Virus record (IMG/VR): IMGVR_UViG_3300045004_000041
Coordinates: 1 to 47,480 of that record
Origin: a virus
Strand: one strand, 5' to 3'
DNA: 47,480 nt
Under the pieces are notes generated by a model. That model was not told where the DNA came from. It was given only the letters and a program-made list of their open reading frames with translations, and made no database searches. Position 1 is the stretch's first letter. Each line of letters opens with the position of its first letter. The translations under genes were made by a program, and so were the position numbers. Below are positions 2,650-28,329 of the stretch, piece after piece.

Positions 2650-5070
2650 GTGCGAGAAGCCTTCAAAGACAAACTGGCGCGACAGATCGCGCTTGAGGAC
2701 GAGAGCCGTGCGCTCGGCGCCAGCCGATATCGTGCGCGCCGCCCGCTACCGTGGCGACATGAACCCTCCAGCACGGACGAGGAAGGCGACCTGCCTCCCG
2801 GCCGTCAGCTACTGCGTCTGGCCATCCAGCCCACCGCCGAAGCGATCCGGTCGTTCTGCGACATCGTGAACCACGGCGGCGGTGCCCGCACCCCGGAAGC
2901 TGCTCTGATCCTCTCCAGTGTCGGCGCCGAAGAGGCCGCCTATCTGACCGGCCGCGTGATCCTGTCCGCCGCAGCCGAAGGCAAGAAGCTGACCGCGACC
3001 GCCATCGCCGTCGCCGACGCCATCATCGAGCACGGCCAGATGGAGACCCTTCGCCGCGCCCGCGCCGATGTCTTCAAAGGCGTCCTCCGCGTTCAGGCGC
3101 ACGGCGTCCGCTCGGCCAAGATGAAGCGCAAAATCCAGAACGTCATGACCGAACACGGCGTGGATCAGTCGTTCCCGCTGGCCATGCGTATCCGCACCGG
3201 CGTCAAGGCCATCGAACTGTTCTGCGATGCGACCGGCCTGTTCGCCATCGAGAGCCAAGGCCAGCGCACCAAGTATGTCCGCCCGACCGAGGCCGTTCAC
3301 AAATGGCTGGAGCAGCAACACGCCCGCTGCGAACTGCTGGAGCCGATCAACCTTCCTATGATCGTGCGTCCGCGCCGTTGGTCGTCGCCATTCAAGGGCG
3401 GCTACGTCACCAAGCAGCCCGGCAACCGTCTCGTGAAACAGGCGAACGCCGCCTATCACGATCAGCTTCGCGACCACATGATGCCCGGCGTCTATGACGC
3501 CGTGAACGCGGTGCAGGAGACGGCGTGGAAGATCAACCCACCCATCCTCGCGATCATGCGCGAAATCTGGGACGGCGGCGGCGTCCTCGGCGATCTCCCG
3601 GCGCGTAATCCGCAGCCGATCCCGCCACGTCCGGCGGACTATGCGGAGAACGAAGAGGCCGCCAACCGCTGGAAGCGCGAGGCGTCGGACATCCACGACC
3701 TCAACGCCAAGAACGTCAGCCAGCGGCTGGCCCTATCGCAACGCCTCTGGGTCGCGACGAAGTTCGCCGACGAGGAAGAAATCTTCTTCCCACACTCGGT
3801 GGATTTCCGAGGCCGCGTCTATCCGCTGTCCACCGGCGGGCCGAACCCGCAGGGTGATGATGTCGCCAAGTCTCTCCTGACTTTCGCCAAGGGCGAGCCG
3901 ATCACTCATGACGGCGCCCGCTGGCTGGCGATCCACCTCGCCGGTCTGTTCGGCATCGACAAGGTTCCGTTCGAAGAACGGGTCCAATGGGTTCACGCCA
4001 ACCAAGCCGCCATCCTCGACAGCGCAGCGGAACCCCTCGACGGGCAACGGTTCTGGGCCACGGCCGATAGCCCCTTCATGGCTCTGGCCGCCTGTATGGA
4101 ATGGGCGGGCTACATCAACGAGGGCGCCGATTTCATCAGCCATCTGCCTGTCAGCCTCGACGGGTCGAACTCCGGCCTCCAGCATTTCAGCGCAATGCTC
4201 CGCGATCCCATCGGAGCCAAGGCAGTCAACCTCGAACCGGGCGACCGTCCGCAGGACATCTACAGCGATGTCGCCCGCGACGTTCAGGCCAAGGTCAACG
4301 ACAGCTACGACCCCGACGCCACGGCGTGGAAGGGCAACAAGGTCACGCGCAAGATCACCAAGCGTCCGGTGATGACCTTCACCTACTCGGCCACGAAATA
4401 CGGCTACTGCGACCAAATCCTCCAGACCCTTCGCGAGATCGACGGCGAGGGTCAGCCCTACCTCGACGCCGACAACTATCTGGCCGCGCGCTACATGGCG
4501 GCCGAAATCTGGGACGGCGTTCAGGGCACGGTCGTCGCCGCCGCAGAGGCCATGGCGTGGCTGCGAACTGTGGCGTCGATCATGACCAAAGCTGGCGTCC
4601 CGATCCGCTGGACGGCGCCGACAGGCTTCCCGGTTCTCCAGACATACGCCAGCCGCAAGACCGGCCGGGTGGTGGTGACATATAAGGGCCAGCGCATCCG
4701 GCTCGAAACCAAGATCGAGCAACGCAAGCTGGACTCCAAACGTCAGGCCAACGGCATCAGCCCAAACCTGATCCACAGCATGGACGCCTCGCACCTCATG
4801 GGTGTGGCCAACCGCTGCTACGACCACGACATCCGTTCGTTGGCCGTGGTCCACGACAGTTTCGGGGTCCACGCGGCGCGAGCTTCAGAGCTTCAAAGCA
4901 TCCTCCGCAACACCTTCGCCGATCTCTACGAGACGAACTGGCTTGAGGTCTTCCGCGAAGAGTTCGTTTCGCAGCTACCGCCCGAGTGGGCCGACCAAAT
5001 CCCGCCGGTTCCAGACCTCGGCGACTTCGACATCCAGAGCGTTCGACGCTCTGATTACCTGTTCGCGTGA
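2650..5070 (+). CDS. T7-type single-subunit DNA-directed RNA polymerase
   Basis: Phage RNA polymerase that would transcribe the late genes from its own promoters. The 806-aa protein is somewhat shorter than T7 gp1 (883 aa). The N-terminus (RQIALEDESRALG) matches the family. Catalytic motifs are all present: motif A with D504 (SLDGSNSGLQHFS), motif B with K571 and Y579 (KRPVMTFTY), the NGISPNLIHSMDASH segment, and motif C with D736 (VVHDSFG). These correspond to T7 D537, K631, Y639 and D812. The start is GTG 2650, the first possible codon after an in-frame TAG; its ribosome-binding site is weak. Only about 1.7 kb separates it from the portal gene, whereas T7 has its replication module there. 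I could not recognise a repeated phage promoter by eye. Confidence 0.97.
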   Translation: MREAFKDKLARQIALEDESRALGASRYRARRPLPWRHEPSSTDEEGDLPPGRQLLRLAIQPTAEAIRSFCDIVNHGGGARTPEAALILSSVGAEEAAYLTGRVILSAAAEGKKLTATAIAVADAIIEHGQMETLRRARADVFKGVLRVQAHGVRSAKMKRKIQNVMTEHGVDQSFPLAMRIRTGVKAIELFCDATGLFAIESQGQRTKYVRPTEAVHKWLEQQHARCELLEPINLPMIVRPRRWSSPFKGGYVTKQPGNRLVKQANAAYHDQLRDHMMPGVYDAVNAVQETAWKINPPILAIMREIWDGGGVLGDLPARNPQPIPPRPADYAENEEAANRWKREASDIHDLNAKNVSQRLALSQRLWVATKFADEEEIFFPHSVDFRGRVYPLSTGGPNPQGDDVAKSLLTFAKGEPITHDGARWLAIHLAGLFGIDKVPFEERVQWVHANQAAILDSAAEPLDGQRFWATADSPFMALAACMEWAGYINEGADFISHLPVSLDGSNSGLQHFSAMLRDPIGAKAVNLEPGDRPQDIYSDVARDVQAKVNDSYDPDATAWKGNKVTRKITKRPVMTFTYSATKYGYCDQILQTLREIDGEGQPYLDADNYLAARYMAAEIWDGVQGTVVAAAEAMAWLRTVASIMTKAGVPIRWTAPTGFPVLQTYASRKTGRVVVTYKGQRIRLETKIEQRKLDSKRQANGISPNLIHSMDASHLMGVANRCYDHDIRSLAVVHDSFGVHAARASELQSILRNTFADLYETNWLEVFREEFVSQLPPEWADQIPPVPDLGDFDIQSVRRSDYLFA

Positions 5071-5106
5071 GCCGTCAGCCCGCTATTGAACAACCGAACC
5101 AATCCC

Positions 5107-5394
5107 ATGAACCCTCTTCCCTCAATCGGTGATCGCGTCCGCACGGACTCGACGGTCGCCATCCTGCGCGAGCCAGCATTCGAACTGCTTTCGCGCATAC
5201 AAGACGCCAATCCTTCGGATCAGGTCCGGGCCTTGTTTCTGGTTGCAGCCGTGATCTCCGACGCCATTGGCATCGACGGTCATGACGCCCTGAACAGCGC
5301 GAAGCGAATGCTCTCGACGGCGGAAGGCCCGCACACCGTCCACGTCCAAGCGATCCGCGACTATGCTGACGGCGAGTTGCGCCGGATTGATTGA
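5107..5394 (+). CDS. Hypothetical protein, 95 aa
   Basis: Unrecognised small protein, mostly helical, with the phrase DQVRALFLVAAVISDAIG in the middle. It follows RNAP by 36 bp in the same direction and overlaps the next frame by four bases (TTGA), so translation may be coupled. ATG 5107 is preferred; an upstream TTG at 5086 is possible. No strong ribosome-binding site precedes either. Its place matches the small host-takeover and replication genes of lytic T7-like phages, but no motif supports a function. Confidence 0.55.
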   Translation: MNPLPSIGDRVRTDSTVAILREPAFELLSRIQDANPSDQVRALFLVAAVISDAIGIDGHDALNSAKRMLSTAEGPHTVHVQAIRDYADGELRRID

Positions 5395-5717
5395 AGCCTG
5401 ATCCGTCAGTCTTCGTCGCGCTGGCCCGGCCGATGCAGTCGGACGCCGCGCACTTCCTCATGCCGACAGACTTGGCCGACGAGGCGTCAGCTTGGCTCCT
5501 GTCGCAGGGCATCCAGCACGATTGGAACGACCTCTACATCATGGGGCGCGAGCCTACCGGCGGAACCCTGATCTCGATTGCCGATCCCAAAGGCGCACTG
5601 GCGTTCAGGATGTGGGGGACTGATGATGTCGTCGGGCCTGTCTCTTTCGGTTCGACACCACACGCTGACACCGTTCGCTGCACGTCAGTCTCGGCTTGCC
5701 GACCCGCAAGTAGGTGA
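5391..5717 (+). CDS. Hypothetical protein, TTG start
   Basis: A 108-aa reading frame starting at TTG 5391, overlapping the previous stop. The first ~85 residues have ordinary protein composition. The last ~35 (after LAFRMWGTDD) lie antisense to the 3' end of the zinc-finger gene on the other strand and look like shadow sequence. It is either a genuine convergent overlap or a gene whose original 3' end was replaced when the minus-strand gene arrived. No family recognised. Confidence 0.45.
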   Translation: MKPDPSVFVALARPMQSDAAHFLMPTDLADEASAWLLSQGIQHDWNDLYIMGREPTGGTLISIADPKGALAFRMWGTDDVVGPVSFGSTPHADTVRCTSVSACRPASR

Positions 5718-6021
5718 AGTCAGCAGCGCATCCGGCGCACTTGGTCGTGACCTCAAGGCCCGTGCCTCTGGCCTCGGGCATGCCGACCGAGCGTCGCTTC
5801 GCGGCCATCACCTTGCAGCGATCATTGCAGAACCTTCTGGCTTGGCTCGATAGCGGAAGCTCGTTCCCGCAGTAGGCACAGCCGCCTTCGTCTTCTTTGA
5901 GAAGTCGTGGAGCGGGCGCCTCCTCTTCAATCGAGTGGGGCGCCAGCAGTCCTTCGATCTTCTCGGCCCACCGGCCCTCTGATTTCAGCATCCCGTATTT
6001 AACGCGGATGCCCCTTCCCAT
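5605..6021 (-). CDS. Small protein with two Cys4-type zinc-finger motifs, against the late-gene direction
   Basis: A 138-aa protein with two treble-clef-like cysteine clusters: CAYCG-N...FCNDRC at about 48-70 and CAGC...TCSERC at about 94-118, each followed by basic residues. Such CxxC...CxxxC modules occur in DNA-binding finger proteins and in some HNH-associated proteins; no catalytic HNH is visible. It is the only minus-strand gene between RNAP (2650) and the large terminase (ends 28329). It starts at ATG 6021 with a weak ribosome-binding site and converges on the frame ending at 5717. It may be a late arrival (moron) or a regulator expressed in lysogeny. Zinc binding is inferred from cysteine spacing. 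Confidence 0.6.
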   Translation of the reverse strand: MGRGIRVKYGMLKSEGRWAEKIEGLLAPHSIEEEAPAPRLLKEDEGGCAYCGNELPLSSQARRFCNDRCKVMAAKRRSVGMPEARGTGLEVTTKCAGCAADFTYLRVGKPRLTCSERCQRVVSNRKRQARRHHQSPTS

Positions 6022-6047
6022 TCCATTTTCTCGAAAGGGCTGACGCC

Positions 6048-6233
6048 ATGAATTTCGTCCGCGACTACATCCTCCCGCGCCTCAAAGAGCGCAGCACCTA
6101 CGTCGGCCTCGTCGCCCTCGCGACCGCCTTCGGCATCGTCATTGATCCGGCTCTTGTCGATGTCGCACTGGCAGTCGGCGCCGCTGTTGGCGGCGTGGTT
6201 TCCATCGTCTGGAAAGACAAGCCCGCCGCGTGA
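6048..6233 (+). CDS. Holin-like small membrane protein
   Basis: A 61-aa protein with two hydrophobic segments (about 18-33 and 36-56), a charged N-terminus (LPRLKERS) and a short positively charged tail (WKDKPAA). Size and layout fit a small phage holin or a related membrane protein that controls lysis timing; the phrase LPRLKERSTYVGL is typical of small phage membrane proteins from memory. A GAAAGG lies just upstream. The next gene overlaps its stop codon (GTGA). No separate endolysin gene was found nearby, so a lysis role is likely but not proven. Confidence 0.55.
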   Translation: MNFVRDYILPRLKERSTYVGLVALATAFGIVIDPALVDVALAVGAAVGGVVSIVWKDKPAA

Positions 6234-6448
6234 GCGACCGTCATCAGCCCACCGCCCACGGTGCGGACAACACCTTCCCGACCAATATCCCCGACCTGAT
6301 ACTTTGGCTCGACAAGCACTGCCCGGAGCCGATGCCGCGCCCCGGCCAGACGATTGAGGAAGTGATGTTCGCCGCTGGCCGCCGCGACTTCGCGCGCCAG
6401 ATCAAACGCCAGTTCGAGCGATCCCTTGAGCGGCCGAACGCCCTTTAA
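6230..6448 (+). CDS. Hypothetical protein, 72 aa, GTG start
   Basis: Starts at GTG 6230 inside the stop region of the holin-like gene (GTGA overlap). It contains NIPDLILWLDKHCPEP, then a basic helical C-terminus rich in Arg. T7-like phages often have one or two small unassigned genes just before the portal. No family recognised. Confidence 0.6.
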   Translation: MSDRHQPTAHGADNTFPTNIPDLILWLDKHCPEPMPRPGQTIEEVMFAAGRRDFARQIKRQFERSLERPNAL

Positions 6449-6460
6449 GGAGATCGCCCC

Positions 6461-6766
6461 ATGTGCCTCTTCAAGAAACCGAAGGTGGTTTCAGCCCCCG
6501 TCGCGGCCGACGCACCCATCCTTCGCAACCCCTACCTCGACGGTCTTGATGCCGTGGTTCGTGCCCGTCAGGGCGGCGTCCGCTCGCTGACTATCCGTAA
6601 GGCCACGGGCACCGCGACGACTGGAAACCCAACCGTCAGCCCCGTTCCTTCGACGCCGCCTGTCACCGGCGGATCAGGCGTCGGTTCCGGCTCCAGCCTG
6701 ACCGACCTGACGACCATGCGTCCGACGCTGGCGATCACGAACAGAACCCTCTCTTCGAAAGTCTAA
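6461..6766 (+). CDS. Small pre-portal phage protein
   Basis: A 101-aa protein starting MCLFKKPK, with a helical start and a low-complexity Gly/Ser/Thr/Pro tail (PVTGGSGVGSGSS). It has a good ribosome-binding site, AAGGAG eight bases before ATG. Short proteins with an N-terminal Met-Cys and a disordered tail are common directly upstream of the portal in T7-like marine and alphaproteobacterial podoviruses, and some are virion components. The specific role is unknown. Confidence 0.65.
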   Translation: MCLFKKPKVVSAPVAADAPILRNPYLDGLDAVVRARQGGVRSLTIRKATGTATTGNPTVSPVPSTPPVTGGSGVGSGSSLTDLTTMRPTLAITNRTLSSKV

Positions 6767-6775
6767 CCCCACCGC

Positions 6776-8296
6776 ATGAAGACCGCAGCAGCGCGTTTCA
6801 GCGCGCTGTCTGTTGCTCGCAACTCCGTTCTGGAGAAGGCGCGTCAAGCATCGCGCCTGACCATTCCCGGCCTGATCCCAGAGCCGGGCCAGAACGAACA
6901 CTACACCCCGAGCCAACCCTATCAGTCGGCGGGCGCCCACGGCCTCCGCAGCCTGTCGGCCCGGTTGCTTTCGACCCTGTTCCCGACATCGGTTCAGTTC
7001 TTCCGACTGGAACTCGACGCCTTCGCGGCGGCGCAGCTTCAGGCCGACAAGAACAACGTAGACACCCGCCTCTCGCAGGTCGCCGAAACGACCGCCGCGA
7101 TGATGGACGACCTCAAGGTTCGTCCCGCGCTGGGCGAAATCATCAAGCAACTGATCGCAGCGGGCAACGTCGTCGGCTACCTGCCGCAGGACCGCGCGCC
7201 TCGCGTCTATCGCATCGACCAGTTCGTGTTGAAGCGAGACAACTACGGTCAGTTCACCGACATCATCATCCAAGAGAAGGTCTGGCCTTCCACGCTTCCC
7301 GAGGCCGTTCGCACCGCCCTCGGCGTGAAGCTGGACCCGAACAAGGATGAGCAGCAGGTCGATGTCTACACCGTCGTCGAACAGCGCGACGGCCTCGTCA
7401 CCCACTGGCAAGAGATCGAAGGCAAGGAAGTCCCCGGCACGAAGTCGGACGCCATCCCGACCGATCAGGCCGGTTGGCTTGCGCCCCGCTGGAGCGTCGT
7501 TCCCGGTAGCGATTACGGCCGCAGCCACATCACCGAATATCTCGGCGACCTCCTGTCGATGGAGGACAACTACAAGGCCATCACGCAGTTCGCGGCCATC
7601 GCCTCGCGCGTGGTCACGGTCGTCAATCCGAGTTCATCGCTCGATGTCGCAGAACTCGCGGCGGCTGAATCCGGCGACTACCTCTATGGCGAGCCTGATG
7701 CGATCCAGACGCTCGGTCTGAACAAGTCGCAGGACTTTGCCGTCATCAAAGACGTGACGATGACCATTGAGGCGCGGGTGAAGGAAGCCTTCCTCGTCAC
7801 TCAATTCCGCAATGCAGAGCGCGTCACCGCCGAGGAAATCCGCAGCCAGTCCGAAGAACTGGAGAACGGCTTGGGCGGCTCCTTCTCGGTGCTGGCTTCC
7901 GAACTCCAGCAGCCGATTGCGTCGCGCTATCTCTACGTCGCCGCACAGCGAAACCTCATCCCCCCGATCCCTGACGGCATCCGTCCCAAGATCGTGACGG
8001 GTCTGGCTGCGCTTGGTCGAGCCGCTGAGGTCAACCGCCTCCGCACGTTCGCCGCCGACGCCATCCAAATCCTGACGCCGCAAGTCTTCGCCAGCCTCGT
8101 GAACGCCCCGTCGTTCTTGAGCCGCCTTGGCAATGAACACGGTGTCTCAAGCCTCGAAACCCTCCTGAAGACGGAGGAACAAATGGCCCAAGAGCAGCAG
8201 CAAGCCATGGCGCAACAGGCCATGCAAGCCGCGACCCCGGCCATCGCGGAAGCCGCCATCGGCGCGGCTACCCAAGACCCTAACCAAGGAACTTAA
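6776..8296 (+). CDS. Portal / head-to-tail connector protein (T7 gp8-like)
   Basis: A dodecameric ring at the capsid vertex through which DNA enters and leaves and to which the tail attaches. The 506-aa protein (T7 gp8 is 536 aa) has the family hallmarks: an N-terminal LRSLSARLLSTLFPTS segment, a central PRWSVVPGSDYGRSHITEY block, then LLSMEDNYKAITQFAAIASR, and a C-terminal Gln/Ala-rich tail (EEQMAQEQQQ). It is followed by the scaffold gene with stop and start overlapping (TAATG). No obvious ribosome-binding site precedes ATG 6776, which is nine bases after the previous stop, so reinitiation is possible. Confidence 0.95.
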   Translation: MKTAAARFSALSVARNSVLEKARQASRLTIPGLIPEPGQNEHYTPSQPYQSAGAHGLRSLSARLLSTLFPTSVQFFRLELDAFAAAQLQADKNNVDTRLSQVAETTAAMMDDLKVRPALGEIIKQLIAAGNVVGYLPQDRAPRVYRIDQFVLKRDNYGQFTDIIIQEKVWPSTLPEAVRTALGVKLDPNKDEQQVDVYTVVEQRDGLVTHWQEIEGKEVPGTKSDAIPTDQAGWLAPRWSVVPGSDYGRSHITEYLGDLLSMEDNYKAITQFAAIASRVVTVVNPSSSLDVAELAAAESGDYLYGEPDAIQTLGLNKSQDFAVIKDVTMTIEARVKEAFLVTQFRNAERVTAEEIRSQSEELENGLGGSFSVLASELQQPIASRYLYVAAQRNLIPPIPDGIRPKIVTGLAALGRAAEVNRLRTFAADAIQILTPQVFASLVNAPSFLSRLGNEHGVSSLETLLKTEEQMAQEQQQAMAQQAMQAATPAIAEAAIGAATQDPNQGT

Positions 8297-9147
8297 TGAG
8301 CCTCGAAAGCCCGGTCACAGAGACCACCACGCCCGCTGACTATTCGCAGATTCCGGCGTCGGCCTTCCCAGAGGGTGCAGACCCCTCGACCTACAAAGAC
8401 TCCCTGTCGGCACCGGAAACCCCGGCCAAGCCGGAACGCCCCGCCCACATCCCCGAGAAGTTCTGGGATGCAGAAGCGGGCACGATCCGCGTCGATGATC
8501 TCGCCAAGTCTTACGCGGAACTGGAGAAGATGAAGTCGGCTGCGAAGCCCGAGGACAAGCCCGCTGACCAAGCGGCCAAGCCTAACGACCTGACCATCAA
8601 ACCGGCGACGGAAGAGACCCCGGCACAAGTCGAGGCCAACCCTGTCACGACCGCGTTCGAGTCATTCGCCAAACACTACGAAGAGACGCAGGGACAACCC
8701 GCCGAAGATCAGATCGCAGAGATCGTGAAGCTCGGCGTCCCGCAGTCCGTCGTAGAAAACTACCTCGCCGGTTTGTCGGCCATGTCCCAACTCGCATTCC
8801 AACAGGCACATGCGACGGCGGGCGGCGAGGATGTCTTCGACGCTGCAACGGATTGGGCTTCAAAGTCCCTGACCGCAGCGGAGATCGACAGCTACAACAC
8901 CCTCGTCTCCAACCCCACGACCGCCACTCAAGGCATCGAATGGTTGGTGGCGAAATACAAGGCGGCTCGTCCGTCCGAAGGCTCGTTCGTCGAGTCGATG
9001 CCGGGCACCGCAGTCGGTGACGTGTTCCGATCCAAATCGGAAATGGTCGCCGCGATGAAGACCGACCGATACCAGACCGACCGTGCCTTTGTGGCAGAGG
9101 TCGCGGCGAAGGTCGCTCGCTCACAAGCAGCAGGAACGCTGCTCTAA
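8296..9147 (+). CDS. Capsid assembly scaffolding protein (T7 gp9-like)
   Basis: An internal scaffold that guides procapsid assembly and is then lost. At 283 aa it is close to T7 gp9 (307 aa). The recognisable segment is HIPEKFWDAEAGTIRVDDL followed by AKSYAELEKM near residues 50-85, common to podovirus scaffolds. The rest is acidic, Ala/Glu/Pro-rich and helical, as expected. It starts at ATG 8296 overlapping the portal stop by one base, with AAGGA upstream. The position between portal and capsid is diagnostic. Confidence 0.92.
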   Translation: MSLESPVTETTTPADYSQIPASAFPEGADPSTYKDSLSAPETPAKPERPAHIPEKFWDAEAGTIRVDDLAKSYAELEKMKSAAKPEDKPADQAAKPNDLTIKPATEETPAQVEANPVTTAFESFAKHYEETQGQPAEDQIAEIVKLGVPQSVVENYLAGLSAMSQLAFQQAHATAGGEDVFDAATDWASKSLTAAEIDSYNTLVSNPTTATQGIEWLVAKYKAARPSEGSFVESMPGTAVGDVFRSKSEMVAAMKTDRYQTDRAFVAEVAAKVARSQAAGTLL

Positions 9148-9395
9148 AGCACCCATAAGACCCTGATCGCTTGCCTCCACAGAGGCTCGCCAGCGGGGCC
9201 GCACAGTTCCCAGCGCAAACACGGAACTGACCGTCTGCGGGCGGGCGGCCGGTGAAAGCCCGGCCTAACCCTTTCTCCCAAATCAAAGCGGAAACATCCG
9301 GCTGCGAAGAGGCCGGATCACTCCGACAACCTTTGCGCCAGCGGACTCCGATTGATCGACGGGAGCCAAAAACTCTCTCTCAATCAAGGAGCCTA
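9148..9395 (+). promoter_or_regulatory. Long leader before the capsid gene, probable phage promoter/processing region
   Basis: This 248-bp spacer is the longest gap in the structural module. It contains small stems: GCCTC/GAGGC near 9175, GGCCGG/CCGGCC near 9248-9270, and TCCGGC/GCCGGA near 9298-9320. In T7 the spacer between genes 9 and 10 carries the strong phi10 promoter and an RNase III site. By analogy a phage promoter is likely here, but I found no sequence repeated at other gene starts that would identify it. It ends in AAGGAG four bases before the capsid ATG. Confidence 0.4.
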
Positions 9396-10355
9396 ATGGC
9401 TAACTCCACCCCCTCGAATCCCGGCTACAAGGCCGGTGATCCCGCTGGCACCAACAACCTGCTGCTCGATATCTTCGGCGGCGAGGTCCAAGCATCCTAC
9501 GAGCGCATGACCGTCATGCGCGACAAGCACCGCATCTTCTCGCTGTCCAACGGCAAGTCGCTGCGCTTCCCCCGCGTCGGCCGCGCGACCGCGACCTACC
9601 ACACGCCGGGCACCGAGATCGTCGGCAAGCAAATCGACCACGATGAGATCGTGCTGTCGTCCGACGACAAGCTGATCTCGGACGTGTTCGTCTCCGACAT
9701 TCAAGAAATCCTGAACCACTTCGACATCCGCTCGGAATACGTTCGCCAACTGGCTGAAGCTCTGGCCGTTCAGTTCGACCAGAACGCCATGCGCGCGGTC
9801 GTGAAGGCTGCTCGTGTGACCGACCTGCTCGGCGGCGGCGCCTCGACCCCGGTCGTGGATGCGGCTCTGCTCACGGACGCCACCAAGCTTTTCGAAGCCT
9901 TCTCCAAGGCCAAGGAAAACCTCGACGGCAAGAACGTCCGCGTCGATATGGTCGATGTGTTCGGTCTCGTGAAGAACGCCCAATGGTATCTGATGGCGCG
10001 CTCGGACAAGAACCTGAACCGCGACTACAACGGCGGTGACGCTTCGCTCCGCAAGCACACCCTCGAAACCATCGACGGCATTAAGATCATCAAGTCGAAC
10101 ATCGCACCGTTCGGTGCTGACGACTCGGCCAACCTGACGATCCCGGCTCGCTACCGTCTGAAGATGGGCACGACTGTCGGCGCCGTCTGGACCAAGGACG
10201 CCATCGGCACCGCCGAAGTCCAAGGCGTCTCGGTGCAGACCGAAGACCAGATCAGCAAGCAAGGCACGCTGATCCTCGCGCGTCAGATGACCGGCACGGA
10301 CACGTTCCGCGCCTCGGATGCGGTCGAACTCCGCACCGGCGCCATCCCGGCCTAA
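9396..10355 (+). CDS. Major capsid protein (T7 gp10A-like)
   Basis: Forms the icosahedral shell. The 319-aa protein (T7 gp10A is 345 aa) has the HK97-type podovirus capsid start, with EVQASYERMTVMRDKHRIF and KSLRFPRVGRATATYHTPG, then YVRQLAEALAVQFDQNAMR. The true start is ATG 9396 (MANSTPSNPGY), set by AAGGAG at 9386-9391; an upstream in-frame ATG at 9252 lies in leader sequence. A strong terminator lies 25 bp after the stop, as after T7 gene 10. I saw no convincing slippery site for a gp10B-like frameshift product. Confidence 0.95.
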   Translation: MANSTPSNPGYKAGDPAGTNNLLLDIFGGEVQASYERMTVMRDKHRIFSLSNGKSLRFPRVGRATATYHTPGTEIVGKQIDHDEIVLSSDDKLISDVFVSDIQEILNHFDIRSEYVRQLAEALAVQFDQNAMRAVVKAARVTDLLGGGASTPVVDAALLTDATKLFEAFSKAKENLDGKNVRVDMVDVFGLVKNAQWYLMARSDKNLNRDYNGGDASLRKHTLETIDGIKIIKSNIAPFGADDSANLTIPARYRLKMGTTVGAVWTKDAIGTAEVQGVSVQTEDQISKQGTLILARQMTGTDTFRASDAVELRTGAIPA

Positions 10356-10380
10356 CGACCGGCAAACCGCCAAACCAGAA

Positions 10381-10415
10381 GGGCGCGCTCTCTCACGAGG
10401 GCGCGTCCTTTTTTT
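10381..10415 (+). terminator. Strong terminator after the capsid gene (T7 T-phi position)
   Basis: A 12-bp stem (10381-10392 with 10397-10408, two G-U pairs), four-base loop TCAC, then seven consecutive T (10409-10415). The position just after the major capsid gene matches the T-phi terminator of T7, which limits expression of tail genes relative to capsid. Confidence 0.85.
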
Positions 10416-10442
10416 CACCTCGTTCCGAAGGAGACCGCGCCC

Positions 10443-14281: not shown

Positions 14282-14284
14282 TCC

Positions 14285-20376: not shown

Positions 20377-20402
20377 AACACCAACCTCAATCCACCCGGA
20401 AA

Positions 20403-20430: not shown

Positions 20431-20454
20431 CGTCGTGGGTGAACGAAAGGATCA

Positions 20455-22650
20455 ATGTCTAACCAGACCCGCGCCCAATACATCGTGACGGGAGGCCAGC
20501 AAGAGTTCGACCTTGCCGTTCCCTTCCTCGACCGAAACCACATCAAGGTCACGCTCAACGGCTCCACGCCGTTCTTTGAATGGCTGACCGACAGCCGCAT
20601 CCGCCTTCGTCAGGCGCCGGTCGAAAGCAGCGTCCTGCAAATCCGACGCGAGACCCCGATCTCGACGGCCCTCGTGGAGTTCCAGAACGGGGCGACCCTG
20701 ACCGCCGAAGAACTGAACCGGGCACACCTTCAGAACCTCTATCGCCTTCAGGAACTCGACGACCTCTACACCGGCTCTCTCGACCGGGCGCAGGTCCGCC
20801 TTGGCGATCACCTCGGCGTCGTCACCACGCCAGACGCTATTGTCGATGAACTGATCCTGACCTCCGAACTCGGGGACGAAGCCCTCAATCGCTTCCGTGA
20901 CGCGCTGGCGACCATCGACCTCTCCACCGAACAGATCATCGGCAACACCCTCGCGCTGACCGATCAAGCCTTCCGCTTGGACAACCTGACGGGCGTCGTG
21001 GACGCTCTGACCAATCTCGAAGACGGGACCGGCCTCGCCACCGTCATCCAGAACGAAGCCAACGCCCGCCTCTCGGGCGACCAAGCCCTTGTCGATACCT
21101 TCGCCCTGATCGGCGCGAAGAGCGCGGACAATCTCTCCTTCATCCTCGACCTCAACAAACTGAAGTCGTCGCCGACCGAGACGATGGCCCAGCGGTTCAA
21201 CGCGATCTACGCGGCGAACGCCAACGCGCTCGGGCTGATCCAGACCGAACAGACGGCCCGCGTGACGGCGATAGATTCCGTGACGCAGACCTTGCAGACG
21301 CAAGGGAGCCGGATCGACGCGAACCAAGCGGCCATCGCCAATGAAGCGACCACACGGGCCGATGCGATCTCGGCGGAAGCCAGCGCGCGCGCCGCCCTGT
21401 CGGCTTCGATTCCGGGCCTCATCAACGCGGCCGTCCTCGTGGAAACCAACGCCCGCGTCGCGGCGGATGCGGCCGAAGCCCAGCTTCGGCAATCGCTGGC
21501 CGTTCAGGTCGGGCAGAACTCGACCGCGATCCAGAACGAAGCGACGGCACGGGCGAACGCCGATGGCGCAATCGCCCAGCAGTTCGCTGTCCTCGGCGCC
21601 TTCCGCAACAATCAGTCCGCCTTCACCCTCGACCTGAACCGGGTCGAAGTCGGTCCCGGCTATAGCCTCGGCACCCGACTGTCGGGGATTGATGTCGCAG
21701 TCGGCAACGTCTCGGCTTCCGTCGTCAATGAGGCGACGGCTCGCGCGAATGCGGACAGCGCGCTCTCCCAAACGATCCAGACCGTTCAGAACACGGTTGG
21801 GGCGCACACGGGTTCGATCACCACGCTTCAGCAAGTGACTGACGGCCTGAATCTCCGATGGAGCGTCGCCCTCAACTCCAACGGCCACATCACCGGGATT
21901 ACGGCCCAGAACAACGGCTCCTTCGGGTCGCTCTCGTTCGTGGCAGATGAAGTCGGTTTCGTCGCGCCGAACGGCGGCTCGCCGGTCAAGATCATGTCCG
22001 TCGTCGCGAACAAGGTCCGCTTCAACTCGAACGTCGAAATCTTCGGCGACCTGCTCGTCACCGGCTCAATCAACAACTCCCGTCTGGTCAACAACACTGT
22101 CACTGGCGTCGAAGCGGCCTACAACGGCGGGACCGTCACCCTCAACAACACCACGCCGACGCGCATTCACGGCGTCTGGATCGGCGTCGAAAAAGCCGAC
22201 AGCCCCATCGACATCGACTTCAACGCCTATGGGACATTCACCCACAATGCGAGCGGGTCGTTCGTGGCCGTCGTGCAGCTTGTCCGGTCGCGCGGGACCG
22301 ATGGCGGAACCGTCATCCAGTCCGTCCAACTGAACGGCTCCGGCATGGCGAACGATACATGGCAAGGCGCCCTGCCGATGAAGTTCCTCGACCGTCCGGG
22401 TGAGGCTGGCAACTGGCACTATTACGTCCAAATCTACTTCAGTTCCGGCATGTCCACCCAGATCGTGACCGCCCGCTACGGCAAGGTCACGGAGATGAAG
22501 AACAACACCTCGACCCTCGGCGGCGGCTCCGGCTCCGGCGGCGGCGTTGGATCAGGAGGCGGTTCATCTGGCGGTGGCGGCGGCGGTGGGGGCTACGACC
22601 CTGACCCCGGCGGCGGCGGCGGTGGCGGCATCGAACCCATCATGGCCTGA
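20455..22650 (+). CDS. Tail fibre protein (T7 gp17-like N-terminus)
   Basis: Trimeric fibre that docks on the tail and contacts the host surface. Residues 1-110 are the conserved T7 tail-fibre attachment domain: QYIVTGGQQEFDLAVPFLDR, then FQNGATLTAEELNRAHLQN and LYRLQELDDLY. The middle (about 200-460) is a long coiled coil with repeated NEATARANADSA-type units, a DUF1983-like segment (VADEVGFVAPNGGSPVKIM) follows, and a beta-rich distal domain ends in a Gly-rich tail (from about residue 690). AAGGA precedes ATG 20455. The distal part likely sets host range; the receptor is unknown. Confidence 0.92.
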   Translation: MSNQTRAQYIVTGGQQEFDLAVPFLDRNHIKVTLNGSTPFFEWLTDSRIRLRQAPVESSVLQIRRETPISTALVEFQNGATLTAEELNRAHLQNLYRLQELDDLYTGSLDRAQVRLGDHLGVVTTPDAIVDELILTSELGDEALNRFRDALATIDLSTEQIIGNTLALTDQAFRLDNLTGVVDALTNLEDGTGLATVIQNEANARLSGDQALVDTFALIGAKSADNLSFILDLNKLKSSPTETMAQRFNAIYAANANALGLIQTEQTARVTAIDSVTQTLQTQGSRIDANQAAIANEATTRADAISAEASARAALSASIPGLINAAVLVETNARVAADAAEAQLRQSLAVQVGQNSTAIQNEATARANADGAIAQQFAVLGAFRNNQSAFTLDLNRVEVGPGYSLGTRLSGIDVAVGNVSASVVNEATARANADSALSQTIQTVQNTVGAHTGSITTLQQVTDGLNLRWSVALNSNGHITGITAQNNGSFGSLSFVADEVGFVAPNGGSPVKIMSVVANKVRFNSNVEIFGDLLVTGSINNSRLVNNTVTGVEAAYNGGTVTLNNTTPTRIHGVWIGVEKADSPIDIDFNAYGTFTHNASGSFVAVVQLVRSRGTDGGTVIQSVQLNGSGMANDTWQGALPMKFLDRPGEAGNWHYYVQIYFSSGMSTQIVTARYGKVTEMKNNTSTLGGGSGSGGGVGSGGGSSGGGGGGGGYDPDPGGGGGGGIEPIMA

Positions 22651-22655
22651 CGAGT

Positions 22656-22677
22656 GACCGGCCTTAACCGGCCGGTC
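22656..22677 (+). terminator. Perfect hairpin between fibre genes, no T-run
   Basis: GACCGGCC/GGCCGGTC, eight perfect pairs with loop TTAACC, six bases after the fibre stop. No U-tract follows, so it is more likely an mRNA-stabilising or processing stem than an intrinsic terminator. It is the third such stem at a late-gene boundary. Confidence 0.4.
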
Positions 22678-22719
22678 CCACATCTAAATACAAGACCCTC
22701 AAACGATCACAGGAGACGC

Positions 22720-22941
22720 ATGTCCCAAACGCCTTCCGCTGCACAGCAGCACCAGACCCTCGCGGCGCAGGAGCAATCGCTTCTGGCTTCCCTCGGCCAC
22801 CTCATGTCGCAGGTCGAAACCACGAAGATCGCCCTGTCGAATGTCCGCGCAGCCCTTCAAGGCGCCGAACTCGGCTACCAACTCGCAACGCCTGAACCGG
22901 CGGCTCCGGTCGAAACCGCTCCGGCTCCCGACACGGAGTAA
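22720..22941 (+). CDS. Small coiled-coil protein between fibre genes
   Basis: A 73-aa, Gln/Ala-rich helical protein (AAQEQSLLASLGHLMSQVE) with a Pro/Ala tail. ATG 22720 is fixed by AGGAG four bases upstream. The two fibre genes on either side suggest a fibre adaptor or assembly helper, but there is no motif to support that. Confidence 0.7.
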   Translation: MSQTPSAAQQHQTLAAQEQSLLASLGHLMSQVETTKIALSNVRAALQGAELGYQLATPEPAAPVETAPAPDTE

Positions 22942-22947
22942 GGTCGA

Positions 22948-25515
22948 ATGAGCGGGCTGACGATCACCACTCTCGCCCAGCAGATTGAAGACCTAATCGT
23001 CAAATCGGAGCAGCAGACGAAAGCCGTCTCTGCTTGGCTGGGTGGGTCCGCGACCGGCGGACCCAACAATGACGGTCGCTATCCCTTTGTGGATTTGGGC
23101 GGCCAAGAAATCCTCGTGCCGTCGCCCGCATCGTTCAACGACATGACCTCCGGCCCGGCGGCGCAATCCGCCGCCGCCAAGGTCGCGACTGAACTCGCGC
23201 GCGATCTGGCAAACGATCACGCCAACCGTGCCGACGCGCAGCGTATCCTTTCGGAAGCGGCGCGCGGCGCGGCGGTCGAAGCGCGCGATCTCGCACAGCA
23301 ACATCGCAATCACGCGGGCACGAGCGAGGCGAATGCCCGCTATTGGGCCGAACTCGCGCAAGGCTCGGGACAGTCCACCTCGGCGGATCGCGCCGTCGTG
23401 GAAGACCTCGCTGAACAGGTGGCGGACAACGCCGCCCTTGCGTCGCAGAAGGCGACCGCTGCCGCAGCCTCGGCCACGCTGGCGGCGACATTCGATCCGA
23501 CCCTTTACGACAAGAAATCCGACACGCTCGCGGCAACCCGTCTGGTCGGGACGCTCGATCCGGCGCGTCTGCCCTCGACGGTTTTCCAAGCCCCCATCGT
23601 GGCGTCATCGACCATCGCGTCGCTGACATCGACACAGCAGTCGGAAGTCCGCATCGGCTCCACCGTCGTCACGTCGGACGGCGTGTTCTGGTCATTCCTC
23701 GGCGGGTCCAAGACTTCGGAGTCCAGCTATAGGGCCATGGCCGACACGACGCCCCCTTGGTCCGCCATCGCCGACAAACCGGCCTATTTCCCGACCAACA
23801 TCGCCAACGTCTCCGGGCTGCAATCGGCGTTGGACGCCAAGGCCGGTCTGACGGCGACCAACACCTTCACGGTCAAGCAGACCATGAACGGCGGGATCAA
23901 CGTCAAAGACAGTCTGACGATGACCGGCTCGGACCCCTACCTGCGTCGTGACAGCAACTCGGCGGCTTGGGTTCTCACGGGCGGTCAGGGCTGGACGGAC
24001 ACCGGCGCCGTCATCGTTCTGCATGGCAAGGATCACGCCACAAGGCCGGGTCACACGCTGATCTATGGCGTCGATGGCGCAAACACTTCGACCCTCGCCA
24101 TCGACGGCTTCAAGGACATCTTCATGAACCGTCGCCCGTCCTTCGCCGGGGCGACGCCGTGGGATTCCGCAAACCTCAATCCCGGCAACTACGCATGGAA
24201 AGCCGGTGGCAACACCATGACCGGCCTGACGCAGTTCCGATCAGGATCAGGAAATAACGCCGCCAACTTCGGCGACCGGGTTCTGGAAGTCTTCAATGAC
24301 GGCGGCGGCGCGGCCATGATCGCCTTCCACCGCAGCGGTAGTTTCGGAGCCTACTTCGGTCTCGATACCGACAACCAACTGAAGGTCGGGGGTTGGTCGA
24401 ACGGGGCCGCTTCGCAGCCTGTCTGGACCGGGTTCAACTTCACGCCATCCAGCAAGGTTAGCTGGACCGACACGAACATGGATGGCGGGGCCTACACTGT
24501 CGTTCGTCGCAACGGTGACGGCGGTGGGTTCTTCACCGGCCGACTTCACGCCTATTCACAGACCGCCACGGTGGACGTCTGGAACGGCGGGATCGAAATC
24601 CAAGAGGTTCAAAACGTCGCCAACACCCAGAGCGGCCATGCCTACGCCCCGGCTCTCACCTTCCACTGGAAGGGTGTCGCGGCCCGGTCACTCTTCATGG
24701 GGTCTGACGCTTGGCTCTACATCGGCCAGCAGGGCGATAAGGGGAACTTCGGCAACCTTGGGGTCAACCGTATCTCGTCGGACGGCAACGAACTCTGGCT
24801 TCAAAAGGCCAAGGTCACGAAGCTGAAAATCCACGACAACGGCATCAACGCCCTCGGCAACTGCGACGTGGACGGCGGTGTCTTTATCCGTTCGGGCGCC
24901 CCGACGATCACGTTTCAAGATAGCGATCACCGCTCTGCGATGATCCACGTCAACAGCAACCGCTTCTACGTCCTCCGAGGCTCGGGCACGAATGCCACAG
25001 GGTGGGAAAGCACCGGCAGCGGGTGGCCGCTGGAAATCAACCTCGACAACAACGACGCCTATTTCGGGGGTCAAATCTACAGCGCGAACAACGGATGGTT
25101 CCGAGTCAGAGGCTCCGGCAACGGCATCTATTGGGAGAACCACGGCGGCGGCTTCCACATGTCCGACAACGATTGGGTTCGCGTCTACAACGGCAAGAAC
25201 CTCTACTGTCAGGCACAGGTCCGCGCGAACACGGTCGTCGGCGAATCCGATAGGCGCCTCAAGACGAACATTGCTCCGATCACCGACGCTACGGAGAAGG
25301 TCGCGGCCCTGTCGGGCGTGACCTTCGATTGGAAGCGTGACGGATCGGCGGGCATGGGTTTCATCGCCCAAGAGTTCGAACGGGTGCTTCCGGCTCTCGT
25401 GACCGAGGACGTGGAGGGGATGAAGGGCGTCGAATACGGCCCTGTCGTCGCGCTGCTCGTCGAGGCTTTGAAGGAGACGAACGCTCGCGTCGCGCTCTTG
25501 GAAGGGAGGGTCTGA
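22948..25515 (+). CDS. Second tail fibre/spike with C-terminal S74 self-cleaving chaperone
   Basis: An 855-aa receptor-binding-type protein. The N-terminal third is helical and Ala-rich (AKVATELARDLANDHANRA), the middle is beta-rich with many Gly/Asn/Trp motifs (for example GGNTMTGLTQFRSGSGNNAA), and the last ~90 residues are an intramolecular chaperone of peptidase family S74: SDRRLKTNI (catalytic Ser about 767, Lys about 772), then GMGFIAQEFERVLPALV and YGPVVALLVEALKE. Such domains trimerise the fibre and then release themselves. There is no T7 anchoring domain, so it probably attaches to the first fibre or another tail part. The following gene overlaps its stop codon (TGATG). Confidence 0.9.
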   Translation: MSGLTITTLAQQIEDLIVKSEQQTKAVSAWLGGSATGGPNNDGRYPFVDLGGQEILVPSPASFNDMTSGPAAQSAAAKVATELARDLANDHANRADAQRILSEAARGAAVEARDLAQQHRNHAGTSEANARYWAELAQGSGQSTSADRAVVEDLAEQVADNAALASQKATAAAASATLAATFDPTLYDKKSDTLAATRLVGTLDPARLPSTVFQAPIVASSTIASLTSTQQSEVRIGSTVVTSDGVFWSFLGGSKTSESSYRAMADTTPPWSAIADKPAYFPTNIANVSGLQSALDAKAGLTATNTFTVKQTMNGGINVKDSLTMTGSDPYLRRDSNSAAWVLTGGQGWTDTGAVIVLHGKDHATRPGHTLIYGVDGANTSTLAIDGFKDIFMNRRPSFAGATPWDSANLNPGNYAWKAGGNTMTGLTQFRSGSGNNAANFGDRVLEVFNDGGGAAMIAFHRSGSFGAYFGLDTDNQLKVGGWSNGAASQPVWTGFNFTPSSKVSWTDTNMDGGAYTVVRRNGDGGGFFTGRLHAYSQTATVDVWNGGIEIQEVQNVANTQSGHAYAPALTFHWKGVAARSLFMGSDAWLYIGQQGDKGNFGNLGVNRISSDGNELWLQKAKVTKLKIHDNGINALGNCDVDGGVFIRSGAPTITFQDSDHRSAMIHVNSNRFYVLRGSGTNATGWESTGSGWPLEINLDNNDAYFGGQIYSANNGWFRVRGSGNGIYWENHGGGFHMSDNDWVRVYNGKNLYCQAQVRANTVVGESDRRLKTNIAPITDATEKVAALSGVTFDWKRDGSAGMGFIAQEFERVLPALVTEDVEGMKGVEYGPVVALLVEALKETNARVALLEGRV

Positions 25516-25979
25516 TGGCCCTCCCATCTTCCGGCTCGATCACCATCGACCAGATCAAAACCGAACTCGGCATCACCGGCGAACTGTCGTTGACCGACAG
25601 CCGCGTTCGCGCCTTGGCGGGTCGATCCTCCGGCGATGTCACCTTGCCGAATGACTTCTGGGGCAAATCGGCTCGAACCGTTCGTCTCATCATCCAGTCA
25701 TCCGAACAGGTCCGAACGAACTGGGGCCAATGGAACGAGCAGCAATATGACAAGATCACATTCGGGATTTCGGTCTCTCCGTATCTCGCGCCGACTTCAT
25801 ACTCATGGGGCGGCGATGTCTCGGGGACTGGTTCGACAGCCATCTTCTACGGCCCGACCTACAACACCAACGGCTACACCTATCAGACCTTCGGCCAAGC
25901 CTACTGCTCGGTCGTCGTCGGCGGTCAGACCTACGATCTAACCCTCGATTTCCAATACACCGCTGGCGATCAAATCTAA
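25515..25979 (+). CDS. Tail tip/adhesin-like small virion protein
   Basis: A 154-aa protein whose first ~50 residues, LPSSGSITIDQIKTELG through LPNDFWGKS, match a short module common in phage tail-tip and fibre-accessory proteins. The rest is beta-rich with many Tyr, Gly and Thr residues. It overlaps the S74 fibre gene by one base, so the two products are probably made together. It may cap or extend the fibre; no enzyme motif is present. Confidence 0.72.
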   Translation: MALPSSGSITIDQIKTELGITGELSLTDSRVRALAGRSSGDVTLPNDFWGKSARTVRLIIQSSEQVRTNWGQWNEQQYDKITFGISVSPYLAPTSYSWGGDVSGTGSTAIFYGPTYNTNGYTYQTFGQAYCSVVVGGQTYDLTLDFQYTAGDQI

Positions 25980-26005: not shown

Positions 26006-26233
26006 ATGGACCCCCATCAAACACCGAACTCCGACCCAGCCTTGGTGCTGATCCTCGGCGAAATCAAAGGCCAGTTGGCCACCTACATCAAGTTCATGGA
26101 GAACTTGCAGAGCAAGCACGACGGTCTGGAAACCCGGACCCGATCTCTTGAGAACGCCAAGTTCTGGATCATGGGCGCCGCCGCCACAGTCGGCGGTCTG
26201 GCGGGCTTCCTCGTGGACCTGTTCAAGTCATGA
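26006..26233 (+). CDS. Coiled-coil plus C-terminal membrane segment, lysis-module candidate
   Basis: A 75-aa protein with a helical, charged region (EIKGQLATYIKFMENLQSKH) and one C-terminal membrane segment (ILGAAATVGGL-type, about 53-72), ending in a short charged tail. This layout is like XhlA/DUF1515-type holin-associated proteins. ATG 26006 has GAAAGG upstream; an upstream in-frame ATG at 25805 is antisense-like shadow over the previous gene. T7-like phages carry lysis genes (holin 17.5, spanin 18.5) exactly here, next to the terminase genes, which supports a lysis role. Confidence 0.62.
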   Translation: MDPHQTPNSDPALVLILGEIKGQLATYIKFMENLQSKHDGLETRTRSLENAKFWIMGAAATVGGLAGFLVDLFKS

Positions 26234-26508
26234 GCGAGCGCGCTTCTGACAAGGCGTTGGATCAGCTTCACGCCACCGTCGCCATGCTGCTAACGAACGA
26301 ACTCTCCCGCGCATGTATCCGCGCCGAAGAGAACCCCGGAGACCCCGGCAAGGCGATCTCACCTCAACTGATCTCGCAAGCCATCAAGTTCCTGAAGGAC
26401 AACGGCGTCGCCGCCTCGGCGACCTCGCCGCGTCTCGACGACCTCACGGCCAAACTCGCTGACCTCGACCTCGACGACGAGGTTCTGTCGGGGATGACGC
26501 CCCAATAA
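26230..26508 (+). CDS. Terminase small subunit (T7 gp18-like DNA maturase A)
   Basis: A 92-aa acidic helical protein immediately before the large terminase. The ISQAIKFLKDNGVAA segment followed by an acidic tail (LADLDLDDEVLSGM) is the familiar form of T7-like small terminases, which recognise concatemer DNA and regulate the large subunit. Its ATG overlaps the preceding stop by four bases (ATGA). T7 gp18 is 89 aa. Confidence 0.85.
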   Translation: MSERASDKALDQLHATVAMLLTNELSRACIRAEENPGDPGKAISPQLISQAIKFLKDNGVAASATSPRLDDLTAKLADLDLDDEVLSGMTPQ

Positions 26509-26574
26509 CACAAAGCCCCACGCTGACCGACCGCTCGCCTTCACCGGCGGACGGCTGGGTCATGCCATGACTGA

Positions 26575-28329
26575 TTGAAACAACGCTCCGAAACGCCGCG
26601 CGAAAAGCTCCAGCGGTCCTTCATCAACTTCGTCCGCTACGTCTGGCGATACGTCCTCGGCCTCCCGAAGCCGACCCGCATCCAAGAAGACATCGCCCGC
26701 TATCTTGAGAACGGCCCGACCCGCCGCGCCATCGAAGCCCTGCGCGGCATCGGCAAGTCATTCATCACCTGCGCCTATGTCGTCTGGTGCCTGTGGCGCG
26801 ACCCGCAGAAGACCGTTCTTATCGTCTCGGCTGGCGAGAGCGGCGCCGCCGACAACGCCAACCTCATCAAGTCGATCATCTTCCACGAGGCGGGCGATCA
26901 GCTATGGGCCGAACTGCGCCCCGGCCGCGATCAGCGATCCTCGACGCTCGCGTTCGATGTCGGCCCGGCCAAGTCGAACAAGCAGCCATCCGTCAAATGC
27001 CTCGGCATCACCGGCCAGCTTGCGGGCAACCGCGCCGACATCCTGATCGGCGACGACGTTGAGAACCAACGCAACTCCGCGACCGAAGACCAGCGCGACA
27101 AGCTGCGCCACGCCACGTCCGAGTTCGGCAAGATCATCAAGCCGCTCGACACGTCAGAGATCATCTACCTCGGAACGCCGCAGACCGAAGAGTCCATCTA
27201 CAACGACCTTCCGAAACGCGGCTATGACATCCGGGTCTGGCCCGCTCGCTACCCCCTGAAATCCAAGCTACCGAACTACGGCGACACCCTCGCGCCGCTG
27301 CTGCGCGCGGACATCGAAAAGTGCGGGACGCTCTGCGATCCGACCGGCCTCTCGCTGTTGGGCGGCGCCCCGACCGACCCCGACCGCTTCACCGACGCCA
27401 AGCTGCTCGAAAGCGAGATGGACGGCACGGCGGCCGAGTTCATGTTGCAGATGATGTTGGACACGAGCCTGTCCGACGCCGAGCGGTTCCCGCTCAAGAC
27501 CTCCGACCTCATCGTCATGAACGTAGATAAGAGTCGGGCGCCGGTCGCACTCTCCTACACGTCCGCCGACGACAAGCAGATCAAAGACGTGATGCTCCCG
27601 AACGTCGGCTTCACCGGCGACAGGTTCTTCTCACCCTTCAACGTCTCCGAACATTGGGCCGACTACACCGGCGCCGTCATGCACATCGACCCCTCGGGCA
27701 CGGGTGCGGACGAGACGGCCTTCGTCGTCACCAAGTTCCTCAACGGCAAGGTCTTCGTCACCAAATGGGGCGGCGTCGCCGGTGACGGCGGTTCGCCCGA
27801 AACGCTCGGGAAGCTGGCGAGCATTGCGGCCGAACAGGAAGTCCGCGCCGTCATCGTCGAGGACAACTTCTCGGACGGCATGTTCCGCCGTCTGCTGACC
27901 CCGATCCTGATCGCCAAGCACACGTCGAAATGGCGGTGCGGCATCGAGGGGGTGAAAGTCCACGGCATGAAAGAGAAGCGGATCGTCGGCGCACTGGAGC
28001 CGGTCATGAAGCAACACCGACTCGTCATCGACAGAGAAGTTCTGAAACTGGACCTCGCCGGTGCAGACCGGATTAAATCTGGCGTATTCCAGATGACCCA
28101 CATGACCGCCCAGCGCGGAGCCTTGAAGCATGACGACCGGATCGACGTGCTGGCCTTGGCTGTCGATTACTGGAAGCAGCACATGGCCGTGGACGCCGCA
28201 CAGGCCGAGGCCGAGCATCGCAAGAAGCTGGATCGCGAGTTCGAGAAACGCTTCTTTGCGGGCACGACCATCAGCCCGCTATTGAATACCAAAGGACGCG
28301 CGCGCGGCGCCGGAAGGCGGATGATTTAG
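26575..28329 (+). CDS. Terminase large subunit (T7 gp19-like DNA maturase B)
   Basis: Packaging motor and nuclease, 584 aa (T7 gp19 586 aa). The ATPase has Walker A at 57-62 (RGIGKS) and Walker B at 155-162 (DILIGDDVE with the catalytic acid). The RNase H-like nuclease has D372 in HIDPSGTGADE, a second acidic site around IVEDNFSDGM, and HDDRIDVLALAVDYW near 525. The start appears to be TTG 26575. An ATG eight bases earlier opens a three-codon frame (Met-Thr-Asp-stop) that ends across this TTG, so initiation may be coupled to it. It is the last gene of the T7 module; the strand switches right after it. Confidence 0.95.
   Translation: MKQRSETPREKLQRSFINFVRYVWRYVLGLPKPTRIQEDIARYLENGPTRRAIEALRGIGKSFITCAYVVWCLWRDPQKTVLIVSAGESGAADNANLIKSIIFHEAGDQLWAELRPGRDQRSSTLAFDVGPAKSNKQPSVKCLGITGQLAGNRADILIGDDVENQRNSATEDQRDKLRHATSEFGKIIKPLDTSEIIYLGTPQTEESIYNDLPKRGYDIRVWPARYPLKSKLPNYGDTLAPLLRADIEKCGTLCDPTGLSLLGGAPTDPDRFTDAKLLESEMDGTAAEFMLQMMLDTSLSDAERFPLKTSDLIVMNVDKSRAPVALSYTSADDKQIKDVMLPNVGFTGDRFFSPFNVSEHWADYTGAVMHIDPSGTGADETAFVVTKFLNGKVFVTKWGGVAGDGGSPETLGKLASIAAEQEVRAVIVEDNFSDGMFRRLLTPILIAKHTSKWRCGIEGVKVHGMKEKRIVGALEPVMKQHRLVIDREVLKLDLAGADRIKSGVFQMTHMTAQRGALKHDDRIDVLALAVDYWKQHMAVDAAQAEAEHRKKLDREFEKRFFAGTTISPLLNTKGRARGAGRRMI

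Follow-up and report, generated by a model that had tools for sequence, protein, structure and literature searches.

Bacteriophage T7 is the textbook phage with its own replisome, and the RNA polymerase that it encodes also primes its replication origins. The DNA analysed here, referred to below as the window, is the whole 47,480-nucleotide virus record IMGVR_UViG_3300045004_000041 of IMG/VR (positions 1-47,480; coordinates are those of the whole window), and it contains a T7-like prophage that keeps the polymerase, virion and packaging genes and in which no T7-type replication module was recognised.

Temperate T7-like phages that carry an integrase and a MarR-like regulator are already established (PMC10134795, PMC9145550). 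Pasto is described as a temperate autographivirus that lysogenises its host and LUZ100 as a proposed temperate phage with temperate features (PMC10134795), and Caulobacter phage S2B is referred to as temperate and functional (PMC9145550). Like the element in the window, whose temperate nature is read from the sequence alone, Pasto and LUZ100 are T7-like and have an integrase and a regulator near the RNA polymerase (RNAP) gene. Unlike it, Pasto has a single-stranded DNA-binding protein (SSB), endonuclease, primase-helicase, DNA polymerase and exonuclease, and LUZ100 also differs in that a DNA polymerase is named among its core genes (PMC10134795). No description of a T7-like lineage without the replication module was found in the literature searched, the original S2B and Pasto papers (Boeckman 2022, Ely 2022) lying outside it.

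The closest cultured relatives of the element are S2B (MN857473) and phage jiawei (OR464703), with about 52% identity in RNAP, 55% in the large terminase subunit (terL) and 56-59% in gp12. Both share with it an early side made up of integrase, regulator and RNAP, a homolog of the open reading frame (ORF) at 5086 after RNAP, a homolog of the ORF at 6461 before the portal gene, the virion module and terL. In contrast to the window, they have a full replication module between RNAP and portal (SSB of the DUF2815 type, RusA, amidase/lysozyme, primase-helicase, DNA polymerase and exonuclease), and they are without the ArdC and c24 genes described below. The host label of jiawei (L019, OR464703, "Mycobacterium phage jiawei") looks doubtful, given that a phage so close to Caulobacter phage S2B is labelled with Mycolicibacterium smegmatis as host. 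Genes of the window were called by PHROGs and Pfam profile searches in six frames; G- and L-numbers are handles of records, and G coordinates refer to contigs turned so that RNAP reads on the plus strand. The core genes and the junction in question are as follows.

772..1965, minus strand: tyrosine integrase (PHROG_1, E 3e-43), with homologs in S2B, jiawei, G004, G017 and G025
1949..2554, minus strand: putative regulator adjoining the integrase (PHROG_9665, E 4e-9), kept with the integrase in S2B and relatives
2650..5070, plus strand: single-subunit T7-type RNAP (PHROG_414, E 2e-237; PF00940)
5071..6775, plus strand: compact RNAP-portal junction, where relatives have a replication module of about 9-11 kb
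6776..8296, plus strand: portal (head-tail connector; PHROG_449, E 6e-143)
8296..13258, plus strand: scaffold, major capsid, tail tubular A and B (PHROG_1052, 267, 446, 457)
13288..25979, plus strand: internal virion proteins, M23-peptidase internal protein and tail spike/fibre genes (PHROG_308, 805, 6651, 5668 and others)
26230..28329, plus strand: terminase small (terS, 26230-26508; PHROG_891) and large (terL, 26575-28329; PHROG_38, E 8e-113) subunits

From portal to terminase all reading frames are intact and the T7 order is kept. The RNAP motifs DGSNSGLQHF, KRPVMTFTYSATKYGY and HDSFG are legible in the translation, as is the R/H-R/H/Y catalytic set of the integrase. Two features of the Autographiviridae are thus present, the phage-encoded single-subunit RNAP and the order portal, scaffold, capsid, tail tubes, internal proteins and terminase; the one that is missing, the T7-type replication module, is usual in the family and not a taxonomic criterion. 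The integrase and neighbouring regulator beside RNAP correspond to temperate phages of the S2B/Pasto type, the regulator at 1949..2554 occupying the place of the MarR-like regulator in temperate T7-like phages.

The gap between RNAP and portal (5071-6775) is 1,705 bp long, and its ORFs are all small (at 5086, 5391, 5605 on the minus strand, 6048, 6230 and 6461), among them Zn-ribbons and a holin-like ORF of 61 aa at 6048. None of these ORFs matched a replication family in PHROGs (cut-off E<=0.01) or in Pfam (cut-off E<=0.1). The Zn-ribbon ORF 5605-6021 (minus strand) had weak HNH/treble-clef matches; it is antisense to and overlaps the end of 5391-5717, and is retained in most relatives with 33-88% identity. 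The ORFs bordering the gap, 5086-5394 after RNAP and 6230-6766 before the portal, are retained and have as homologs the genes on either side of the module in S2B and jiawei. Given that these bordering genes are conserved on both sides, the window lacks exactly the replication block. Nor was a replication gene recognised in the cargo region (28.3-43.6 kb), searched ORF by ORF and then as a set of 63 leftover six-frame ORFs; the families found there were helix-turn-helix (HTH) regulators, ArdC, DUF892, HNH and a response-regulator receiver, and nothing else. DNA_pol_A (PF00476) was missing from the whole records of the module-less relatives, and the same search detected it in S2B, jiawei, G014, G020 and G021. 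An earlier note on this DNA, made for the interval 2650-28329, had claimed that RNAP, portal through terminase and integrase are intact and in T7 order, that the 1.7 kb gap holds only small genes and that the cargo is free of replication genes; all three claims were borne out by the profile searches, with the integrase (772-1965, minus strand) lying to the left of that interval.

The compact junction is shared with at least 14 further IMG/VR records, with RNAPs 58-100% identical to that of the window, and its recurrence in all of these excludes a chance origin. The completeness of the records is uneven (G004 and G005 are partial, G023 is rearranged, and G002 and G023 are the rearranged or frameshifted cases). 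The module is kept in L045/G020 (RNAP 54% identical) and L046/G021 (39%), and L044/L047 (G022, RNAP 55%) are intermediate, having of the module only RusA and the amidase. In trees of RNAP, terL and portal the module-less records form a single clade with support 100/100, so that one change suffices; this clade is nested among temperate T7-like phages with the module (S2B, jiawei and IMG/VR records), and the RNAP and terL trees place G022 as its sister. Pairwise ratios of nonsynonymous to synonymous substitution (dN/dS), calculated for the window against six relatives, were 0.10-0.29 (RNAP), 0.06-0.31 (terL), 0.10-0.37 (portal) and 0.10-0.20 (ArdC), and the values for RNAP, portal, tail, terL and ArdC, mostly 0.06-0.37, indicate purifying selection. 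A plasmid search with RNAP gave matches all below 60%.

Taken together, the genome comparisons show an apparently intact temperate autographivirus lineage in which the whole T7-type replication module was lost once between RNAP and portal and which then diversified, with the RNAP, virion, packaging and integration genes kept under selection. The earlier note had named as evidence against its reading that the element might be a fixed deletion derivative of a relative with the module at this spot. In an evolutionary sense one part of this holds: the module sits at precisely this position in S2B, jiawei and G020, so that the lineage stems from a module-bearing ancestor. The other part does not, given that the loss, as judged from the trees, is old and fixed at the base of a diverse clade, and the element is no defective derivative; the lineage itself, by its divergence and dN/dS, is an old one that selection maintains as a phage.

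The sister record L047/G022 (20,402 bp) has RNAP, RusA, amidase, portal, terS/terL, ArdC and c24 and shows no recognisable capsid or tail-tube genes from portal to terS; it may be a virion-reduced derivative. The regulator-integrase pair lies at 38476-39851 (plus strand) in G017 and at 38854-40322 (plus strand) in G025, compared with 772-2554 (minus strand) in the window. This opposite end and orientation in some relatives suggests that integration modules have been exchanged.

ArdC was found in every module-less record that spans the region and, by profile search, in none of the module-bearing relatives compared. Downstream of it lies exactly one of two unrelated genes, c24 or c52, in 10/10 long records. 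Seven carry c24 (the window, G003, G016, G017, G018, G024 and G025), which is also present in G022, and three (G008, G011 and G023) carry c52, coding for a protein of 961-966 aa. With fixed margins and relatedness ignored, such a perfect split is expected in 1 of C(10,3)=120 arrangements. The c52 gene occurs on three separate branches, and the proteins of G011 and G023 are identical over 333 aligned residues despite the different branches of their RNAPs, which indicates that the slot has been exchanged horizontally. In the window the region contains the following features.

34513..35931, plus strand: ArdC-type protein (ArdcN plus PolyVal metallopeptidase; PF08401, PF18818)
37935..38594, plus strand: c24, 219 aa, candidate initiator (no Pfam, PHROG, PADLOC or PDB match; dN/dS 0.06-0.30)
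38597..38800, no strand: candidate origin, a hairpin and inverted TAATAGAGGGAG array conserved 3' of c24, within roughly the 1% of the record richest in AT
38612-38628/38645-38661: hairpin arms (17 bp), with an outer stem at 38597-38604/38668-38675
38614(-), 38648(+), 38689(-, degenerate) and 38785(+): copies of TAATAGAGGGAG in alternating inverted orientation

A noncoding block with the hairpin and TAATAGAGGGAG is located directly 3' of c24 in 7/7 c24 records, and in each it falls within the lowest 1.5% or so of 150-bp windows by G+C content. Three copies of TAATAGAGGGAG with at most one mismatch were present in the window, compared with 0.05 expected (0/100 shuffles). As far as the site alone is concerned, the features of an iteron or stem-loop replicon are present, namely repeated inverted sites in AT-rich noncoding DNA beside c24. 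A comparable arrangement was seen at c52. Just upstream of c52 in G011 and G023 are four copies of AACTTCCCCCAAACTG, arranged as two inverted pairs and present nowhere else in the record. In G008 the sequence TATTAATACC-TTAATAC, which also forms the loop of the c24 hairpin, lies inside a long palindrome upstream of c52. The motifs FxFEFDxE, SGNKSxHxH and DxxxxQPExxRRLPxGT were read by eye in the c52 alignment and resemble those of archaeo-eukaryotic primases (AEP; acidic pair, SGx(K/R)xxH and a third acidic residue), for which an SGxRG motif and a set of acidic and His residues have been described (PMC4434180). P-loop-like and DExx-like segments were also read by eye.

Given that every long record has either the one or the other of these modules, never both, each with repeats that look like an origin, the replication module seems to have been replaced and not merely to be absent. 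The earlier note, right about the missing module, had overlooked this. The best explanation, in which we place about even confidence, is that the module-less lineage now starts replication from a small replacement replicon downstream of ArdC and uses the host polymerase, the replacement function of the slot being deduced from gene content and position. In this scheme replication would start from a replicon in the early/accessory region, with c24 acting in the window on the adjacent AT-rich hairpin and inverted-repeat array, and the AEP-like primase-helicase c52 acting in G008, G011 and G023 on its own inverted repeats. Either protein would bind its repeats, open the AT-rich hairpin region and recruit or prime host replication; elongation would fall to host DNA polymerase III and helicase, because no phage replicative polymerase is present, and the terminase would package the product. 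It is also conceivable, with somewhat less than even confidence, that the T7 replisome was swapped for minimal replicons that can be exchanged and are of two kinds unrelated to each other. In one, c24 would represent an initiator family of 219 aa not described before, with an origin made of the hairpin and inverted repeats; in the other, an AEP-like primase-helicase would use repeats of its own. RNAP control would thereby have become decoupled from phage DNA replication.

Parallels to such replicons exist. In the plasmid pRN1 a stem-loop origin lies 3' of an AEP replication gene, which is experimentally supported, and the same has been proposed for some phages (PMC4234260). The c52 records resemble this in that inverted repeats adjoin the gene of a large protein with AEP-like motifs, and the c24 records in having a conserved stem-loop directly 3' of the gene; they differ in that no sequence relationship is detectable, c24 is small and unrelated, and host and genome context are different. 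RepB' of RSF1010 primes at hairpin ssi sites (PMC4434180), and the hairpins here are alike as possible priming points, by analogy and with no homology shown.

Several results weigh against a replacement replicon. No homology or fold match of c24 to any initiator was detected in Pfam, PHROGs or PDB; its predicted structure is of moderate quality (predicted local distance difference test, pLDDT, 73) with no significant PDB match, and a plasmid search with it gave no match. The AEP assignment of c52 found no backing in Pfam, PHROGs or PDB searches and its AlphaFold model is poor, the N-terminus folding so badly (pLDDT 37) that its structural matches are meaningless; neither plasmid nor phage matches to c52 were obtained in the searches. 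No DnaA boxes were found near the array, and DnaA boxes and GC skew were uninformative. The hairpins that follow c24 might serve to terminate transcription or have some other regulatory role. The first suspicion had in fact been that the array represents T7-like promoters or a simple terminator; it was set aside for an origin, and a terminator may still be correct. Mismatch-tolerant word clustering for phage-RNAP promoters gave nothing convincing. With RNAalifold the covariation term of the array was slightly unfavourable (+4.1) because its stem is nearly invariant, and an RNA structure is neither supported nor refuted by this value. The alternating orientation, the AT-rich position and the parallel array at c52 make an origin the better reading of the c24 array.

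The strongest competing explanation, which we regard as rather unlikely, is that there is no dedicated initiator and that the host alone copies the prophage, for instance in place, starting at a host or prophage origin, or once it has excised, by means of recombination; c24 and c52 would then be ordinary cargo and the hairpins terminators. It draws on the lack of a recognisable replication protein in the window and on the position of the hairpins, which directly follow c24 and lie between convergent genes in several records, but it leaves unaccounted for the strict one-of-two occupancy of the slot, the inverted arrays of conserved sequence next to the genes of two unrelated proteins, and the exchange of modules between divergent phages. 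Of the three readings offered in the earlier note, replication by the host remains likely as far as elongation is concerned; a helper and a packaging device, for neither of which anything positive was found, are less probable.

Dependence on a helper, by which the phage would build its own virion and package itself but borrow the replisome of a co-infecting T7-like relative, e.g. a phage of the S2B type, is improbable: module-bearing relatives with 50-55% identical RNAPs do exist, but all members of a long-diverged 14-record clade would then require helpers, including those that, judging by IMG identifiers (2887871325, 2885077293, 2627853674), come from isolate genomes, and no co-occurrence was seen. 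Satellites of the P4 or phage-inducible chromosomal island (PICI) type have an incomplete virion set and use that of the helper, whereas virion and terminase genes are complete here. Very improbable, too, is a domesticated packaging device that, like a gene transfer agent, packages host DNA. The retention of virion and packaging genes without a known replication module would fit such a device, but integrase and regulator are intact, with varied integrase types and positions, and the exchangeable cargo and diversified tail fibres are traits of mobile phages. The same applies to the scattered distribution of the records, no RNAP relative having been found among GTDB representatives in either of two scans (about 85,000 species genomes). 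Gene transfer agents lack an integrase and are inherited vertically; here the integrase is present and relatives are absent from both scans. Simple decay or an assembly artefact, at which a few rearranged or frameshifted single records (G023, G002) might hint, has hardly any probability left and is already refuted for the lineage by the recurrence of the junction in independent assemblies and divergent relatives, by purifying selection and by intact frames, prophage remnants being marked by broken core genes and relaxed selection, so that the earlier judgement of "not simple decay" is strongly supported by a trait of the whole clade.

A natural, selected lineage that keeps a T7-type polymerase and virion without the replisome indicates that these two halves are separable. 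With the loss placed on one branch and a partial-module record as sister, T7-like phage replication without T7 replication proteins becomes a directly testable question.

The remaining features of the window concern the accessory region and the flanks.

38952..39488, minus strand: accessory DUF892 ferritin-like protein (PF05974, E 2e-63)
66..602, plus strand: PAP2-type phosphatase gene fragment in the host flank (tblastn: alphaproteobacterial plasmid PAP2 genes, 45-49% identity)

Both the window and G004 have a host-type flank on the left side. The right end of the prophage may lie at 43626, as placed by a 12-bp match (668/43616); no exact direct repeat of at least 16 bp marks the attachment (att) sites. 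A minus-strand block at 43695-47349, with an HTH_17/AlpA-like gene, SNase, several small ORFs of phage-early type and HNH and with no homologs in any relative, probably belongs to a neighbouring element outside this prophage. The best matches of ArdC are Caulobacter phages, with hits also to Brevundimonas phages, and these matches together with the alphaproteobacterial PAP2 flank suggest a Caulobacterales-like host.

Between terL and the integrase side the accessory regions are exchangeable (methyltransferases, UmuC-like polymerase, AbiU/AIPR). In the relatives the variable region (G018 29373-30611, G008 36999-38900 and G017 26872-28671, on oriented contigs) carries genes for a UmuC-like polymerase, an AbiU/AIPR protein and double N6/N4 methyltransferases and looks like a defence/anti-defence hotspot. 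Four small paralogous ORFs of the window (31272-31502 on the minus strand, 32049-32366, 33218-33472 on the minus strand and 33563-33898 on the minus strand) lie in one stretch of cargo and are multiplied in relatives too.

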